Source: a virus
Length of the DNA: 51,754 bases
Virus record (IMG/VR): IMGVR_UViG_3300046488_000201
Span: 1 to 51,754 of that record
Direction: 5' to 3' (one strand)
Notes under the pieces: generated by a model
Database searches by the model: none
What the model saw: only the letters and a program-made list of their open reading frames with translations
What the model was told of the DNA's origin: nothing
Shown here: positions 5,529 to 18,700 of the stretch, one piece after another
Layout: each line of letters opens with the position of its first letter
Position numbering within the stretch: the first letter of the stretch is position 1
Program-made: the position numbers and the translations under genes

Positions 5529-7401
5529 TCCCTCCCGCGCGCAATTGAGAGACGAGCGACCGCAGCGCCGAGACCTCTGCCCGCAGATCCACGAGATCGC
5601 GAGTGAGACTGGAGAGAGGTGCCGGCGTGTCGCAATTGAATGACACGACGAAGCCTCGCTCGATCGTCCAGCCATTCACGAACGAGCCGCTGCTGCAACC
5701 ACTCGTCTCGTTCAAACCGTTGTCTTTGTAGTAGAAGAAGTGATTGCCGGACGAATAGACGACCGGCCAGTCGCCCGAACTCGTGGCGTCCGGATCGTTG
5801 TAGATCTTGTCAACGTAGATCTGGCCCCAGTGCGCCGACCACTCCCCAAGTGAGCCGCCACTATTCGAGAAGGCCGCGGCGGTGCCAGCGCCCGTCCTGA
5901 AATAGTAGGAGTTAGCACCTCCGCCGGTGTCGAGACGGAACATGCCTGGAGACACGATGGTGACGTAGTCGTTGGTTCCGCCGCCGTATTGCTCCATGTA
6001 GGCGAGACCAGAGCCGTCGTGGCCGATGAACCCGTAGTAGTAGTCATTGTTCGGCCAACCCGCGCCTGTCGATTGCGGAGCGATTTTCAGGCCGTGGCCA
6101 TCCATCCGGGCCAGCGTCGTGCCGCTCGAGTCGACGGAGCGCAGGTTCGTGCCGTCCATGAGCGCGCGCGCCCCGCTCGCCGCCGTCTGGATCGTTGCGC
6201 CGGTTACCGTTCCGGCCGTGATGGTGCCAAGGTCGGCGGCGATCGCCGAGAGCGTCGAGACGTTCATCTTCCCGGCCGTTATGGTACTCGCCGCAATCTC
6301 GTTCGCCGTGATCGTCGACGCCGCGATCTGAGACGCGGTGATCGTGTTCGAGGCGATCTGCGTCGCGGTGACAGTTCCAGTCGTGATGTTCCCGCCGTTG
6401 ATGGCCGTGATGCCCGACCCGTCACCGGTGAATGTGGCTGTCGCGCCGGGCCCGATCGTGACGCGCGCGGTTCCGGCGGAGTCATAGATGTTGATCCCGT
6501 TCGTTGGCTCGATCGTGAGTCGATTGCCGGCGGGCGTTCCGAACCCACAGCCGTAGATGTTCGTGGCGTAGCCATAGAGCCCGTTCAGGTTGCCGCAGGC
6601 CCAGCGCGTGGCCACGTCGGAGAACGTCGTCCCCGTGCGCACCAGGCCCTCGAGTGTAGGCCCGTAGGCGCGGCCGAGAATCCCTACGCCCGCGCGCTGG
6701 TCGATGAACCCCGCGCCCGTTGTGCCAGTGTCCACGACGGCGTCACCGGTATACCAACTGTTCGCGCCGGTGCCGTCGAGATTACGCGTCACCGAGTAGG
6801 TGTAGGGCCCGGCGCCGGACGCTCCGCTTGCGACGGCCATCCATTCCACGTTGCCGTTGGCCTGCAGCCATATCCGATCGCCGTTGACCAGATTGTTGTG
6901 CTTGACGCTGATCGAGGTCGCGCCGGCCGTGAGATCCGCGGCCAGGTAGGTCGTCGGCGCGGTCAGGAGCTCGCCGCCGATCGTGGAGCGCACGCTCGTC
7001 GCGATGAGCGTCTGGACGTTCAGTTCGTCGAGGTAGGCCGTGCGGAGCTTCAGCGCGGCCGCGCCGATGTCACTCGTCCACGCGGTCGACGCGAGGATGT
7101 GCCCTCCGAACGTCTGGTCGTAGGCCCCGAAGGTATTCGCTCGATCGGTGCGGACGTTCCCCGTCCGCGTCCAGGTGCCGGAGACCTTGGTCCAGATGAT
7201 GGCGCCAGGAAACTGCAGATAGACATCGCCATCCGCGCCGGCCGACGGATCCGCCGCGCCGAATGACACCGCGGGGCCCTTCGTCGTGCGGTCGCTCATG
7301 AACTGGATGATCTTCGGATAGACGATGCCTGCAACCTGGGCCTGCACCTGGCTGGTCATCATCACGAGCACGACCGCCGCACCAAAGAGCAGTCGTCGCA
7401 T
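5482..7401 (-). CDS. Tail fibre protein with N-terminal signal peptide (639 aa)
   Basis: Start 7401 gives MRRLLFGAAVVLVMMTSQVQAQ, a clear Sec signal; the stop of the hub gene is 3 bases away, supporting this start. The middle (about 290-370) has repeats of the form AS-T-I-T-A-N-E-I and G-T-I-T-A-G-T-V, typical of the rod part of phage central fibres. The C-terminal region is Gly/Tyr-rich (NNDYYYGFIGHDG, GNHFFYYKDNG) and ends in a heptad-like helix (LVDLRAEVSALRSLV). It follows the hub gene and probably forms a receptor-binding fibre. A signal peptide on a virion fibre is unusual. Confidence 0.8.
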   Translation of the reverse strand: MRRLLFGAAVVLVMMTSQVQAQVAGIVYPKIIQFMSDRTTKGPAVSFGAADPSAGADGDVYLQFPGAIIWTKVSGTWTRTGNVRTDRANTFGAYDQTFGGHILASTAWTSDIGAAALKLRTAYLDELNVQTLIATSVRSTIGGELLTAPTTYLAADLTAGATSISVKHNNLVNGDRIWLQANGNVEWMAVASGASGAGPYTYSVTRNLDGTGANSWYTGDAVVDTGTTGAGFIDQRAGVGILGRAYGPTLEGLVRTGTTFSDVATRWACGNLNGLYGYATNIYGCGFGTPAGNRLTIEPTNGINIYDSAGTARVTIGPGATATFTGDGSGITAINGGNITTGTVTATQIASNTITASQIAASTITANEIAASTITAGKMNVSTLSAIAADLGTITAGTVTGATIQTAASGARALMDGTNLRSVDSSGTTLARMDGHGLKIAPQSTGAGWPNNDYYYGFIGHDGSGLAYMEQYGGGTNDYVTIVSPGMFRLDTGGGANSYYFRTGAGTAAAFSNSGGSLGEWSAHWGQIYVDKIYNDPDATSSGDWPVVYSSGNHFFYYKDNGLNETSGCSSGSFVNGWTIERGFVVSFNCDTPAPLSSLTRDLVDLRAEVSALRSLVSQLRAGGITEPAGAGELRGPRR

Positions 7402-7403
7402 GG

Positions 7404-9470
7404 TCACTCCACGTAGCCCCAGACGCCACAGGCCGTCGCCGCGTCCAGATAGTTGACTTCCAGCCGATGCGGAGCCCCGTCGAGGACCGCGATGAGCAGG
7501 TCCTCCCACGCCGCCGCCGCCATAGGATCGCTCCCGGTCGCGGCCGTGCCGGTCGCGAGCACTGTCCAGGCCGCGCCGGTCCACGCCGACACCCGTAGCT
7601 GCACCGCCACCGCCGGATCGCTCGTCACCCGACAGGTCTTCACCGTCGCCACGCCGCCCGGGAAATCCGTCGCGCGCAAAACCTTCGGGCGGCTCTCGTA
7701 GACCGGCTGCCAGCCGGTGAGCGGCTCACGGTCCGCCAGGGACCCGCCGAGGTCCGCATACGTGCGGCCCGTGGCCGGCACGGGGGTCGCCGCAACGGTC
7801 GCGCCGCCGCCGCCGGACGCCCCGCCAGAGGCGACCGCGCGCCAATCCTCGAGCGGGCTGCCGCCGAAGGTCCCACCTTTGACTTCGGTCGTCCGATAGA
7901 CGCGTTCGTCGCCGTCCTGCTCCATGTCGACGCCGGTAATCAGGGAGTCGTCATCGACCTCGAGGAGGCTGCAGGCCACATGGTGCGACCGGCCGGGGCG
8001 CAGGCCATCCGTGTCGGTGGAGAACGTGAATTCCTCCACCTCCGCCGAGGTCTGCGCGCGGATGGCATCGGCGAGCGCCTGAGCCGCCGGCAATTCGAGG
8101 CACGCCGCCCGGGTGGCCAGTGCCTCGACGGGCGTCGGCGAGCCTGCATCGGAGATGACCTCGATGGGGTACTGTGCCGTGTATCCGGGCCCGACAATCG
8201 TGACCGCCGCGACGGCCGCGATGTCCCCGTACGTGCTGCTCTCGTAGGCGAGGCGCTGATGACGGAAGTCCCAGCACCAAGTTGCCAAGCCGGGCCACGG
8301 GTCGACGGAAGAATCCCACCAGAAGCAGGGGCCCGAAATGTCGTCGCGACCGGAGACGGCGATCTCATTGGGCCAGACGCCGTAGTAGTTGTCGGTCGGG
8401 ACCGGATAGTCGCAGCGGAAGTAGCGGCGCGTGCCGTCCACCACGGCGTCGGCGCCCGTCCAACTCTGCGTCTTGATGATCTGCGAGCTATCGCCGCACC
8501 GCAGGATGATGTAATCGGCATAGCCCGAATCCGAGTCGTGGATCTCCGGCTCCGGGTCGGCGAGGATGTGACCGTCCATCTCCTCGATCACCCACGCGGC
8601 CGCCTTCGTCCCGGGTGCCCACATCTCGAGGACCATGTCCGGGTCTGATTCGAAGAGCCACGGGGCCACGCCGGCGCCGGCATATTTCGCGATGTCATTC
8701 CAGACATCGATGAGCGGGGCGTTGTCGAACTCGAGCGCCGGGAGCGCAGGACCAGCGACCTGCGCCGGATTCAAGGTGAACCCATAGCGGGCCAGCGGGC
8801 CCGGGGTGAGCGTATGCTGCAGGGCTTGCAGCACGGTCAGGCCTGCCGGCGCCGACCAGGTGAGATGGCAATTACTGAGGTGGATCAGATGGCCGGCCGC
8901 CTGGATGTTCGTCTGCAGCCAGTCGCTGCGCCCGGGCCGCGACGGCGAGGTGATGAGTCCCCCGAACCACTTGACGCCGATCGTCTCGGACGGCAGGGCC
9001 GCAACCGTGGTCGCATCGATGCCCCACGTCGCCGTGACCAGCGAACCCGCGATCCACCGGTCGGCGGCCCCGTGGAGGAACCCATAGACGCGCACCGCGA
9101 CGGCCCCCGGCATGGCGGCCCACCGCATGATGATCGTCGCCGCACCGCCGCCGCCAGCGACGGTGAACGCATATTCCGGCGAAACCCGGATGAACCCGTC
9201 GGCATCATAGGCGACCAGGCGGAAGTACCAGGTGCCGTCCGACACCACGCCGCCCGTGCCCTGGGTGAACAGGATGGGCCCCGGCGCGCGCATGCCGCGA
9301 TAGACAGCCACCGTCTGGCGCTTCCGGGGTCGGAATCCCGCCAGCACGTCTTCGTCACCGAACTGCAGACGGACCTGGTCCGGCTCGTTCTGGCGCCAGG
9401 AGATCTTCAGCTGACCCTGTTCCGCCCAGTCGGTGCGGTCGACGCCGTCGATGAAGCAGATGAAGTTCAT
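7404..9470 (-). CDS. Tail-tip / baseplate hub protein (688 aa)
   Basis: The start MNFICFIDGVDRTDW overlaps the tape-measure stop by ATGA. The N-terminal 100 residues are beta-rich as in the first barrel of hub proteins (ISWRQNEPDQVRLQFGDED). The central part (DVWNDIAKYAGAGVAPWLF) and the region around 470-540 (QTSAEVEEFTFSTDTDGLRPG) resemble gp27-like tail hubs. A Gly/Ala linker and a C-terminal beta domain, possibly carbohydrate-binding, follow. It lies directly downstream of the tape measure and upstream of the fibre, the canonical hub place. Confidence 0.75.
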   Translation of the reverse strand: MNFICFIDGVDRTDWAEQGQLKISWRQNEPDQVRLQFGDEDVLAGFRPRKRQTVAVYRGMRAPGPILFTQGTGGVVSDGTWYFRLVAYDADGFIRVSPEYAFTVAGGGGAATIIMRWAAMPGAVAVRVYGFLHGAADRWIAGSLVTATWGIDATTVAALPSETIGVKWFGGLITSPSRPGRSDWLQTNIQAAGHLIHLSNCHLTWSAPAGLTVLQALQHTLTPGPLARYGFTLNPAQVAGPALPALEFDNAPLIDVWNDIAKYAGAGVAPWLFESDPDMVLEMWAPGTKAAAWVIEEMDGHILADPEPEIHDSDSGYADYIILRCGDSSQIIKTQSWTGADAVVDGTRRYFRCDYPVPTDNYYGVWPNEIAVSGRDDISGPCFWWDSSVDPWPGLATWCWDFRHQRLAYESSTYGDIAAVAAVTIVGPGYTAQYPIEVISDAGSPTPVEALATRAACLELPAAQALADAIRAQTSAEVEEFTFSTDTDGLRPGRSHHVACSLLEVDDDSLITGVDMEQDGDERVYRTTEVKGGTFGGSPLEDWRAVASGGASGGGGATVAATPVPATGRTYADLGGSLADREPLTGWQPVYESRPKVLRATDFPGGVATVKTCRVTSDPAVAVQLRVSAWTGAAWTVLATGTAATGSDPMAAAAWEDLLIAVLDGAPHRLEVNYLDAATACGVWGYVE

Positions 9471-14336: not shown

Positions 14337-15182
14337 ATGTCTCCCTCTGTCCAGGCGCCCGCCGTCTCTCCGCCCACCGACTTCCAGACGTTCCTCGTGC
14401 TCGAGAAGGGCCTGCAGCCGGTGACCGTGCGCAACCACGTGCGCGCGATCGCCCGCATCGAACGGCGAACCGGCCCGCTCTCGCTGTCCGTCGCGCAAGC
14501 CTTCGTGGCCAGCCTCTACCAGTCGACGGCCAGCTACAGCCACAAGAGCAACAGCGTCACGTCGATCGAGCACTACCTCGAGTACTTGGGCACGCCGCAC
14601 CGGTTCCACCGGCAGCGCAAACCGCGGCCGCTCGTCGTCCAGGTGCTCTCCGAGGCCGAGATCGCCAGCCTCGTCTTCGTCTGCCGCACCGTCCGGGAGA
14701 AAGCGATGGTCGCGCTCCTGGCGCACTCGGGCGTCCGGCCGAAGGAACTCTGCCAACTGCGCTCGTGCGACGTCGACACGACGCACAACCAACTGCGCAT
14801 CATCCAGGGCAAGGGGCTGAAGGACGGCGTCATCCACATTCCAGCCGCATGCGTGCAAGTGCTCCGGGACTACCTGGTCGAATCCCACCGGGCGCCGGGC
14901 GACTTCCTGTTCGTGACCCACCGCGACGGCCATCCCTACACCCAACTGGCGCTGCGCAAGTTGATTCGACGGGTCGGCAAGCGCGCGGGTATCGCGCGCC
15001 GGATTTACCCCTACCTGCTCCGCCACAGCCTGGCGACGCACATGATCAGCCGAGGCGCGCCACTGCTTGCGGTCAAGCAGCAACTGCGGCACGCCTATCT
15101 GGAGACCACCTGGCATTACGTCGCCTCGCTGGGGTATGACCCGGAATCGCAATTCGACCGCTTCTTCCCGTCCTACCTCTGA
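14337..15182 (+). CDS. Second tyrosine recombinase, XerC/D-like (281 aa)
   Basis: The N-terminal core-binding domain spans about residues 14-90. The catalytic part has Arg in HSGVRPKEL, Lys near IQGKGLKDG, YLLRHSLATH (the first His of HxxR is Tyr here), His in LRHAYLETT and nucleophile Tyr in WHYVAS. GAGG precedes the ATG. It points opposite to the late operon, lies between the chaperones and the retroelement, and is followed by its own hairpin terminator. The domain order and compact size fit Xer-type enzymes. Possible jobs are dimer resolution, an inversion switch or an inserted element; no flanking inverted repeats were found by eye. Confidence 0.85.
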   Translation: MSPSVQAPAVSPPTDFQTFLVLEKGLQPVTVRNHVRAIARIERRTGPLSLSVAQAFVASLYQSTASYSHKSNSVTSIEHYLEYLGTPHRFHRQRKPRPLVVQVLSEAEIASLVFVCRTVREKAMVALLAHSGVRPKELCQLRSCDVDTTHNQLRIIQGKGLKDGVIHIPAACVQVLRDYLVESHRAPGDFLFVTHRDGHPYTQLALRKLIRRVGKRAGIARRIYPYLLRHSLATHMISRGAPLLAVKQQLRHAYLETTWHYVASLGYDPESQFDRFFPSYL

Positions 15183-15309: not shown

Positions 15310-15720
15310 CTACGCGAGCCCAAGAGCCACGCGCTGCGCCTTTCCCCACGCCCGGCACGCCTTCACGTGCTGGAGATACTCGTCGTAGTCGGCCCCGGCC
15401 AGCACGCTTTCTCGGAGCATCTGCAGCTCGTCGTTGAGGTCGTACTTTTCGCGGATGCGCTCGACCACCCGCTGGTTGATGAGCCGCACGTGTGGGCTGC
15501 GTGCCTTGATCGCCTTGATGACGGCCGGCGTCAGCGCGGTGGACACCGGAGCGATACTGGTCGGCTGCTCGGGCAGCGTCACGCCGTCGGGCACGTGGAC
15601 GTAGGTCGTGCCGTCGATGGTCGCCAGTTCGGTTCCGACCGGATGGCCGTCGCCGTCAACAGGCAGCCGCAGTTCCACCGACCGCACTGCATCGATAGAT
15701 TTCTGGTACGCGAGGATCAT
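15310..15720 (-). CDS. Hypothetical protein downstream of the reverse transcriptase (136 aa)
   Basis: It starts MILAYQKSIDAVRSVELRLP and has a small beta part (GTTYVHVPDGVTLPEQP). The helical C-terminus (IREKYDLNDELQMLRES, then DEYLQHVKACRAWGKAQ) recalls the ends of tail-fibre assembly or DUF4376-like phage proteins. The start lies inside the last 65 bases of the reverse transcriptase gene, so expression is linked to it. It may be an accessory tail-fibre chaperone or a DGR accessory protein; neither is certain. Confidence 0.6.
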   Translation of the reverse strand: MILAYQKSIDAVRSVELRLPVDGDGHPVGTELATIDGTTYVHVPDGVTLPEQPTSIAPVSTALTPAVIKAIKARSPHVRLINQRVVERIREKYDLNDELQMLRESVLAGADYDEYLQHVKACRAWGKAQRVALGLA

Positions 15721-16675
15721 GTCCGTACTGCTCCTGGAGTGTGCGCACAAGGCGCCGGAAACTGTGGGTGCGCCGGGCATGGCCCAGCACAGAAATGGCC
15801 GACTGGAGACGCCCGTGGCGTAACGCGCGGGTGAAGACGAAGAGGCTGCGCTTACGGAGGAACCGCTTACTCGCCCACGTGCGGTAGCCGACAAAGTTCA
15901 CGCCACGCTGGATGGGCGCAATAGTGAACCGCGAGAGTTCGAGGGCCAGCCGCTCGTGCAAGAACGCGATGCTGCGCGCGAGGAGATCTCGCCCCTGGGA
16001 GAGCGACACGCCGAAGATGACGATGTCGTCCACGTAGCGGCAGTACCACCGACAGCCCAGCGTGCGCTTCGCGAAGTGGTCGAACGTGTCCAGATAGATC
16101 AGGGCATAGACCTGGGACAGCAGGTTTCCGATGGGAATCCCAATCGGCTCCCCATAGTCTGCGAACAGCATCATGACGGCGACAAACCGCCGATCTTTTA
16201 TCTTGCGCTCGACGAGCCTCCGCAGAATGGCCCGGTCGATTCGATAGAAGAACTTGCGGATGTCCATCTTCAGCGTGTAGCTGTCGCGCGACACGGACCC
16301 GATGGCCCGCTGGGCGTAATCGGCGGCGGCGTGCGTGCCCTTCCCCTTGCGACACGCGAATGACTGATCGATGAACGTGGCGTTGAAGATCTGGTAGATG
16401 ACGCGGTAGATCGCGTGCTGCACGACCAAGTCCCCGAACGACGGCGCGAAGATTCGACGCGGCTTCGGTTCGTAGACCATGAACGTGTAGTACGGCTGCG
16501 GCCGATACGACCCGTCATGGAGCGCCGCGTGGAGTCTGTCGAGGTTGAACGCCAGCCGGCGCTCGAACTCGAAGCACGCACGCTTGCCGTGCTTGTGGCG
16601 GCTCGCGTCCTCGTAGGCCGCATAGAGGTTCTCTGCCGAGAACGCCTGTTCGAAGAGATGGCCGATGCGTTTCAT
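15656..16675 (-). CDS. DGR reverse transcriptase (339 aa)
   Basis: It copies the TR RNA into cDNA with errors at adenines. Motifs run in order: RRIFAPSFGDLVVQHAIY (73-90), SFACRKGKGTHAA (105-117), LKMDIRKFFYRID (136-148), PIGNLLSQ (181-188), YVDD (214-217) and VNFVGYRTW. The SQ of IGNLLSQ sets DGR enzymes apart from group II intron and retron types, and no maturase or endonuclease domain is present. The length is normal for the family. The ATG at 16675 is preferred over one three codons upstream. It lies just downstream of TR and Avd in the usual DGR order. Confidence 0.95.
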   Translation of the reverse strand: MKRIGHLFEQAFSAENLYAAYEDASRHKHGKRACFEFERRLAFNLDRLHAALHDGSYRPQPYYTFMVYEPKPRRIFAPSFGDLVVQHAIYRVIYQIFNATFIDQSFACRKGKGTHAAADYAQRAIGSVSRDSYTLKMDIRKFFYRIDRAILRRLVERKIKDRRFVAVMMLFADYGEPIGIPIGNLLSQVYALIYLDTFDHFAKRTLGCRWYCRYVDDIVIFGVSLSQGRDLLARSIAFLHERLALELSRFTIAPIQRGVNFVGYRTWASKRFLRKRSLFVFTRALRHGRLQSAISVLGHARRTHSFRRLVRTLQEQYGHDPRVPEIYRCSAVGGTAAAC

Positions 16676-16811
16676 AATGCCCACCCCGTGACGGTCGAGA
16701 CGTGTGGTCCTACTAGAAACAGGGGTGGCCTGCCGATTTCGCAGCCTTGCGGCTGCCGGAAAGCGCCTCCCTTTGCTCCACCCTTCGCTTGCGCGATGCG
16801 AGGCGAAACAG

Positions 16812-16927
16812 AGTCAGCGCGGAACCCGACATTGTTGTTGGAGTTCGCTCGGTCGTTGTTGCAATTGAGCGTCCAGACTCCCGCATTCGAACTGTTGTTC
16901 CAGTTACCGCCGGAAATCGGACACATG
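16812..16927 (-). repeat. DGR template repeat (TR)
   Basis: This 116-base segment matches the VR except at adenines and is rich in AAC and AAT codons (about 30 A in all). It starts at the avd stop codon and lies upstream of the reverse transcriptase, so it is transcribed with both. It shows the template character: at all 11 coding differences TR has A where VR has C, G or T. A short open frame across it (MCPISGGNWNNSSN...) exists only because the repeat is a copy of coding sequence. Confidence 0.95.
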
Positions 16928-17326
16928 TTAAGACGCCTCCCGTTGCGTGCGCTCGTGGACGATCCAGCCGCCGATCATGCGACCGAGTTCGTCGACGAGG
17001 CGGCCGATGGCCAGATACCGATGCTTCGCCTGGGCGGAGCCGGAGGCCCCCTTGCCATCCTTGAAACCGAAGTAGTCGAGTGCATGGGCGAGATTGATCA
17101 ACATCCTGAGTTGTTCGTGCCGAATGTCGAGCGCCGTCAGTGACGTCTTCTTCTGGTACCGCTTCTCGCACTCGACGATCAGTCCGTACACGTCGTAGAG
17201 TGCAGTGCGAATCGCCTGACAGAGCGCGTACTTCTCGTGCTTCGGGAAGTGGTTGAGATACACATTCAGCAGCTTCGCCGTCTCGACGAACTTCCGATTC
17301 AGCTCCGCCGCCGAATGCACCCCCAT
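16928..17326 (-). CDS. avd: Avd-like accessory protein of the DGR (132 aa)
   Basis: The protein is almost entirely helical and basic (ELNRKFVETAKLLNVYLNHF, then KYALCQAIRTALYDVYGLIV, then LDIRHEQLRMLINLAHALDY, then YLAIGRLVDELGRMIGGW). These are four helices, as in the pentameric four-helix-bundle Avd family, which binds the reverse transcriptase and template RNA. Its stop codon touches the TR. Size and gene order (VR protein, avd, TR, RT) match classical DGRs of the Bordetella phage type. Confidence 0.9.
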   Translation of the reverse strand: MGVHSAAELNRKFVETAKLLNVYLNHFPKHEKYALCQAIRTALYDVYGLIVECEKRYQKKTSLTALDIRHEQLRMLINLAHALDYFGFKDGKGASGSAQAKHRYLAIGRLVDELGRMIGGWIVHERTQREAS

Positions 17327-17341
17327 ACTCCAGTCTTCCTT

Positions 17342-17363
17342 GGGCGGCGCTACCGCACCGCCC
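17342..17363. repeat. Hairpin/cruciform just past VR
   Basis: GGGCGGCGC and GCACCGCCC form a 9-bp stem (one mismatch) around the 4-base loop TACC (GGTA on the coding strand). It starts 20 bases after the end of VR and 9 after the gene's stop. Several DGRs have an 8-10 bp stem with a 4-base loop here that raises retrohoming efficiency. Confidence 0.65.
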
Positions 17364-17371
17364 TCACATCC

Positions 17372-18700
17372 TCACAAGAACAAGGCAGCGCGGAACCCGA
17401 CAGTGTTGGTGGAGGCCGCCCGGGCGTTGTTGCAATAGAGCGTCCAGACTCCCGCAGTCGAACTGGTGTTCCAGGTACCGCCGGAAATCGGACACATGCT
17501 GGCCGGACGATAGTCGTACAAGATGTCGTTGCCGAAGGCGTTGGTTCCGCCGACGCCGCCTACGAGCGGAATGCCGAGGCCGGTCGCTTGCCACGGCAGG
17601 CCACTCACGGCCTCGGACAGCACCTGCGCGGCGTTGCCGAACGTCTTCCCGGACGAACTGGCGGTCAGCGCGCCATACGTCGCGCCGAGTTCGTCGTAGA
17701 GCGCCGCGATTCCCGCCGCGCCCCAAAGGTCAGTCGCCAGCGCCGTGCCGCTCGTGACGTCCTTCATTCGCACCGAGGTCTTCAGCGCGTAGTATTTCGC
17801 GCCTCCATCGTCCGTGGCGAGGCCGGGCGAGATCTCCCACATTGTGCCGTTCAGATCGACGACGCCTGAGTTCTGGCCGTTGTGCGCGGTCCGCGCGAAG
17901 AGATTGGCGCTGCCCGTCTTCGCGCAGTTTGAATAGCCGTCGCTCACGAAGGTGAGCGTGGCATCCTGCGCATCCCCGAGGGCGTTGTTGTTGCAGCCCT
18001 TGGGGAAGTTGTTCGTCGCGTGGTACCACGCGCACCAGGTCGTAGACGACGACGCCTGCGCGTGCGCCAGCGCCAGCAGCGCCAGCGCGCCGCGAATGTG
18101 CTGCGGGCAGCAGAAGAAGGCCGCGCCGCGCGTCTTGGCGGCGACGATTGCGCCGTGGTAGGCGTTGGTCGGCGCGCCAGTCAATCCCGCGAACGGATTG
18201 CGGTCGGCGGCAGACGACAGCGGGTTGCCCAGCTTGAGACTGGAGGCTACGCCGCCATTGTTGCTGCACAGGTACTTGTCCACGAACACGCCCGGCTGCA
18301 CGCCGCCATCGTAGAAGGCGCGATGCAGCGCGTAGCCAGCGGCGTTTGCTGTCGCGACGTCGGCGTATTCCGAGAACGGCTTGATGGCGACGGCGTTGAC
18401 GGCCAGGCCGTTCGCCCCGGTCCCGTACTTGTAGTAGAACGCCGGCATCCACACCATGACCGAGCCGTCGGCGCACTGGTAGTTGCCGTAGTTGTCCGAC
18501 GCGGAATCGGTCGTGCCGAACATCGCGCCCATGCCGGCGGGCAACGGGCCAGGGCAGATGCCCACGCCAAATCCCATCTGGCCGGGGATGCCGATCTGAT
18601 TGACGTTGGACGCGGCGCCTTGGCCGATGGTCAGACCGTAAGGAAAGTTCGCCGGGCGCTGGCCGGGTCCCTCGAAGTGGTCGAAAATGGCTTTACTCAT
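17372..18700 (-). CDS. Variable protein, target of the DGR, C-type-lectin-like fold (442 aa)
   Basis: The C-terminal 200 residues have the formylglycine-enzyme/C-type-lectin pattern used by DGR targets. Evidence is DLNGTMWEISPG (around 290) and a final strand-rich part with GGTWNTSSTAG, WTLYCNN and VGFRAALFL, where variable residues sit among fixed W, G and C. The first 200 residues are beta-rich with two Cys-rich loops and probably attach it to the virion. It is encoded between the tail tube and the tape measure and so is probably a receptor-binding tip protein. It has no signal peptide. Confidence 0.93.
   Translation of the reverse strand: MSKAIFDHFEGPGQRPANFPYGLTIGQGAASNVNQIGIPGQMGFGVGICPGPLPAGMGAMFGTTDSASDNYGNYQCADGSVMVWMPAFYYKYGTGANGLAVNAVAIKPFSEYADVATANAAGYALHRAFYDGGVQPGVFVDKYLCSNNGGVASSLKLGNPLSSAADRNPFAGLTGAPTNAYHGAIVAAKTRGAAFFCCPQHIRGALALLALAHAQASSSTTWCAWYHATNNFPKGCNNNALGDAQDATLTFVSDGYSNCAKTGSANLFARTAHNGQNSGVVDLNGTMWEISPGLATDDGGAKYYALKTSVRMKDVTSGTALATDLWGAAGIAALYDELGATYGALTASSSGKTFGNAAQVLSEAVSGLPWQATGLGIPLVGGVGGTNAFGNDILYDYRPASMCPISGGTWNTSSTAGVWTLYCNNARAASTNTVGFRAALFL
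17383..17498 (-). repeat. DGR variable repeat (VR)
   Basis: The last third of a hundred codons of the gene at 17372-18700 lies in this segment, which equals TR outside A positions. Nine amino acids differ from TR (six N and two D changed to T or A, one N to Y) and one CGA is CGG. The non-varying 3' part (GTCGGGTTCCGCGCT) is the likely initiation-of-homing site. VR and TR diverge two bases past it. Confidence 0.95.

Follow-up and report, generated by a model that had tools for sequence, protein, structure and literature searches.

A diversity-generating retroelement between the neck and tape-measure genes

The viral DNA analyzed here (the window) is the whole 51,754-nt stretch of IMG/VR record IMGVR_UViG_3300046488_000201, and it raises the question of whether a reverse transcriptase (RT) gene and a nearby pair of repeats, differing only at adenines, form a complete diversity-generating retroelement (DGR) that still operates. 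Our answer is that the element is a complete, intact, and probably active phage DGR, to which we assign a probability of about 0.95. The four parts that had been predicted in classical order were all found from ORFs, Pfam and PHROG matches, and the repeat pair; each lies on the minus strand, in the order target gene with a C-terminal variable repeat (VR), bAvd, template repeat (TR), and DGR-type RT. Parts and order are identical to those of the Bordetella phage BPP-1 DGR (mtd-avd-TR-brt). The element is a good further example of a well-known kind of retroelement and not a new kind: more than 30,000 DGRs have been described, many of which belong to phages and have C-terminal C-lec targets, and the phage DGRs of that global survey are, like that of the window, viral, with a C-lec VR at the C-terminus of a presumed attachment protein (PMC8144416). 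The genes at the locus are:

17372–18700, minus strand: DGR target, 442 amino acids, with a C-terminal C-type-lectin/FGE-like domain (ORF, profile, Foldseek)
16928–17326, minus strand: accessory protein bAvd, 132 amino acids (PF22296, 1.5e-15; PHROG 3206, Avd of DGR, 3.3e-20)
15656–16684, minus strand: DGR reverse transcriptase with IGNLLSQ and YVDD (PF00078, 2.8e-12; PHROG 1423, 8e-99; PDB 8ub7, 1.3e-55)
15310–15720, minus strand: neighboring conserved phage gene, ~136 amino acids, after the RT in most relatives

The cassette had been assigned to a tail operon, which is roughly right but only approximate because its exact site is between the neck and tape-measure genes. The interval originally proposed, beginning at 15310, was too generous, as it takes in the conserved phage gene, which is no part of the DGR. 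That gene was considered as an extra DGR component since it trails the RT in most relatives, but it was rejected because it remains in relatives that have lost Avd-TR-RT. The stretch separating the DGR from the tape-measure gene carries, on the other strand, a tyrosine-recombinase integrase (PF00589, 1.5e-30; 14337–15182, plus strand), for which the loci of the DGR relatives contained no match.

The RT probably starts at the ATG at 16675. It groups with those of DGR relatives on a tree, and its PDB match is to the BPP-1 DGR RT, with which it is 38% identical over 93%; the enzyme is thus of DGR type, and the lack of such a family match, which would have spoken against a DGR, is not seen. Both the Pfam and the PHROG assignments confirm the Avd-like protein. 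In the DGR of Pseudomonas phage Bise (OR683401), the RT and Avd are 59% and 65% identical, respectively, to those of the window. Bacterial contigs with related RTs are chiefly proteobacterial MAGs (e.g., Rhodocyclales, Dechloromonas, Thiobacillus), which may offer a lead to the host, but a lead only.

Adenine-only differences between TR and VR

16812–16927, minus strand: TR, 116 nt, beginning right after the Avd stop codon
17383–17498, minus strand: VR, whole repeat, 116 nt, 571 nt from the TR
17386–17498, minus strand: mutagenized part of the VR, with 10 A-site changes relative to the TR
17383–17401, minus strand: IMH-like 3' end of the VR with the fixed GCC(TT) junction (comparison with relatives)

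Alignment of the two 116-nt repeats (134 nt in BPP-1) bore out the 11 differences that had been read from the sequence, all of them at TR adenines (8 A>C, 2 A>G, and 1 A>T). None occurred at the 86 non-A positions, so there is no sign of the equal off-adenine rate that would speak against a DGR. Given 30 adenines in 116 nt, the chance of 11 out of 11 mismatches falling on A is 7e-8. Across the whole 51.7-kb window, a search for further VRs found none beyond the known one.

The 11 mismatches change nine residues and one synonymous Arg codon, but they are not all equivalent. The last (TR 16814, VR 17385; GAC>GCC, Asp>Ala) is, judged by comparison with relatives, a fixed IMH*/IMH-type junction difference and not a random misincorporation, because practically all relatives share it (TR GACTC and VR GCCTT at the 3' ends, in a comparison of 55 TR/VR pairs of relatives) and the Ala of the junction codon is invariant across 37 target proteins. 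The window therefore carries the IMH/IMH* difference by which DGRs are recognized, and only 10 mismatches and eight residues count as mutagenesis: nine residues do differ, as predicted, but one of them is fixed. The eight credited changes are five Asn>Thr, one Asn>Tyr, one Asp>Ala, and one Asn>Ala, accompanied by the silent Arg codon. Without the junction site, the 10 remaining mismatches have a chance probability of 3.2e-7, which, with the A-only pattern of the relatives, upholds the view that adenine-specific mutagenesis has happened here. The A>C skew (8/11, one of the eight being the fixed junction) has P = 0.006 relative to the relatives, in one test among many; AAC>ACC selection would account for it.

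Hairpin and structured spacer RNA

17342–17363, minus strand: hairpin after the VR, with a 9-bp GC stem GGGCGGTGC, loop GGTA (GRNA), and stem GCGCCGCCC
16692–16815, minus strand: structured spacer RNA from TR to RT (covariation; model R1, 104 bits, E = 2e-28, a score that is not independent, as the window is among the 28 spacers used to build R1)

A GRNA-loop hairpin following the VR is characteristic of DGRs and is present in the window. In BPP-1-like DGRs, the consensus is a 7–10 bp GC stem with a GRNA loop, and Guo et al. found such a post-VR hairpin to be important in BPP-1 (PMC3240598). BPP-1 and the window are alike in this GC hairpin and also in that the TR follows immediately on the avd stop. 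In a large share of the relatives, the GC hairpin gives way to an outer stem that covaries and encloses a nearly invariant GAGC-GATA-GCGA core, possibly with tandem G.A pairs and a 2-bp inner stem, which differs from the 7–10 bp GC stem. This second type overlaps the Avd start codon (e.g., in L006, L012, L032, L047, and L073). On the RT tree, the two hairpin types are clustered, though not each of a single origin.

A structured spacer RNA, a further DGR hallmark, was likewise found. In the common structure of the 28 aligned spacers, 95.7% of cells pair, and 15 of the 27 pairs show two-sided changes; the covariation score was 0.50, whereas shuffles gave 0.16 and sliding no more than 0.11. The covariance model R1 matched the spacer in most of the DGR-bearing bacterial contigs tested, none of which was used to build it, and a strongly covarying spacer RNA is present in DGRs of many proteobacterial contigs. 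It also matched the spacer of phage Bise, but not that of BPP-1, which is 144 nt long as against ~127 nt in the window. Rfam yielded only a sub-threshold match in the spacer region, probably by chance. In BPP-1, RT-Avd is recruited by the folded spacer, which also serves to prime cDNA synthesis; the BPP-1 system has been reconstituted in laboratory E. coli in the same work (PMC12875486).

The target protein

A C-type-lectin fold had been proposed for the target, and this was supported in two ways. A profile of 37 target relatives matched TaqVP, a C-type-lectin DGR variable protein of Thermus aquaticus (5vf4; 2.9e-6), in two stretches that include the VR, and Foldseek with the predicted fold placed 5vf4 on top (4.3e-4) as the sole convincing match, albeit at only 15–16% identity. 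TaqVP is known from a bacterial genome, not from a free phage. Confidence in the structure model is middling overall and lowest over the VR domain (mean pLDDT 62), so that the VR is placed at the C-terminal end of a target with a C-type-lectin fold, as in other DGRs, with low model confidence in the VR itself. The profile was needed: phmmer with the target sequence alone had no match in PDB, and Pfam has no family for it. By tblastn, the BPP-1 target showed no similarity, and that of phage Bise has only the C-terminal part in common (27%). Given a weak PHROG tail match (4.7e-6) and a gene position between neck and tape-measure genes, the target is presumed to be a receptor-like tail or attachment protein of the virion that would bind the host.

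Activity of the element

Pooling the loci of 68 relatives, 1060 of 1886 TR-A sites were changed (56%, a count to which each locus contributes roughly one fixed junction site), compared to 43 of 5930 others (0.7%). Seven contigs have identical TRs and flanks (0 differences over 600 nt on the target side and 900 nt on the RT side), but their VRs differ: pairwise comparison gives as many as 18 differences at the 23 TR-A sites and 0–1 elsewhere in the VR, and one pair has identical VRs. Several further groups of relatives are similar. Because relatives with identical flanks differ in the VR almost only at TR adenines, the DGR family of these relatives is active. A VR-pattern search of IMG/VR revealed no near-identical relative of the window, so that current mutagenic retrohoming in this phage itself is a probable inference.

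By homology with BPP-1, the avd-TR-spacer transcript would fold via the spacer RNA and bind RT and Avd. The RT would then copy the TR from near the IMH* end, misinserting opposite adenines, and the mutated cDNA would replace the terminal VR of the target gene, helped by IMH homology and the downstream hairpin. Surface residues of the C-type-lectin-type tail or attachment protein would thereby vary, and probably with them the receptor range of the phage.

Could the 10 changes instead be old, left by a DGR that once worked but has since fallen silent or begun to decay? In the window, changes are confined to 10 of 29 A sites, versus ~55% in relatives, and the mutator has been lost repeatedly among those relatives. 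However, the target, Avd, and RT frames are open, the motifs of the RT are intact, as are the hairpin and the spacer RNA, and there is no non-A drift between TR and VR; we consider a silent element very improbable. More remote still is a plain duplicated repeat, lying beside an unrelated reverse transcriptase, with copies that came to differ only at A through chance or selection. Chance is of course always possible, and the A>C-skewed spectrum could be held in its favor, but A-only mismatches have a P of 3e-7, and dozens of relatives share the same arrangement and the same A-only rule, a pattern that already refutes it. We give it virtually no weight and retain the reading of an intact, probably active DGR.

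Relatives lacking Avd-TR-RT

Several relatives have kept the target and the next gene while Avd-TR-RT is absent: L005/L007/L008, L141/L142, L164, L195, and L204/L206/L218. This state is a loss, because in L195 the start of Avd is fused to the end of the RT, and L164 and L141 retain Avd starts. The losses in L005/L007/L008 (versus L006), L141/L142, L164, and L195 are apparently independent. No RT was found on the cassette-less contigs, which are fragments, except for the L195 remnant. Collapse of the TR/VR repeats during assembly is unlikely because the junctions lie outside the repeats and the same junction recurs in three metagenomes.

L204, L206, and L218 (IMGVR 3300050140_000030, 3300050190_000039, and 3300048762_000328, respectively) have that common junction, and the hairpin is gone. 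Over 10,245 positions, L204 and L206 show 25 differences; 19 lie in the VR, and 18 of those 19 coincide with TR-A sites of the closest relative that still has the cassette. L218 has a third VR, and a block of changes immediately upstream suggests recombination. The three VRs differ from one another at 18–22 TR-A positions and 1–2 others, a diversity that may reflect either trans-mutagenesis or VR import by recombination. That the mutator is a separable public good, lost repeatedly while cassette-less VRs are still diversified in trans, is a speculative and rather unlikely reading that concerns the relatives and not the window; the trans source would be a co-resident phage or prophage, or would lie elsewhere in the genome. 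Another relative, L088 (IMGVR 3300045918_000398), has an apparent second DGR (~6590–7760, minus strand), with one TR and two VRs, beside its first.

Implications

Fixed TR/VR junction sites should be left out when DGR mutations are counted. The window contributes a complete DGR with clear limits to a family whose members are mostly DGRs of proteobacterial phages, and it brings a covarying spacer RNA that matches no Rfam family. Relatives that kept the target but lost the mutator are natural knock-outs, which make the role of the DGR, and its possible action in trans, testable.
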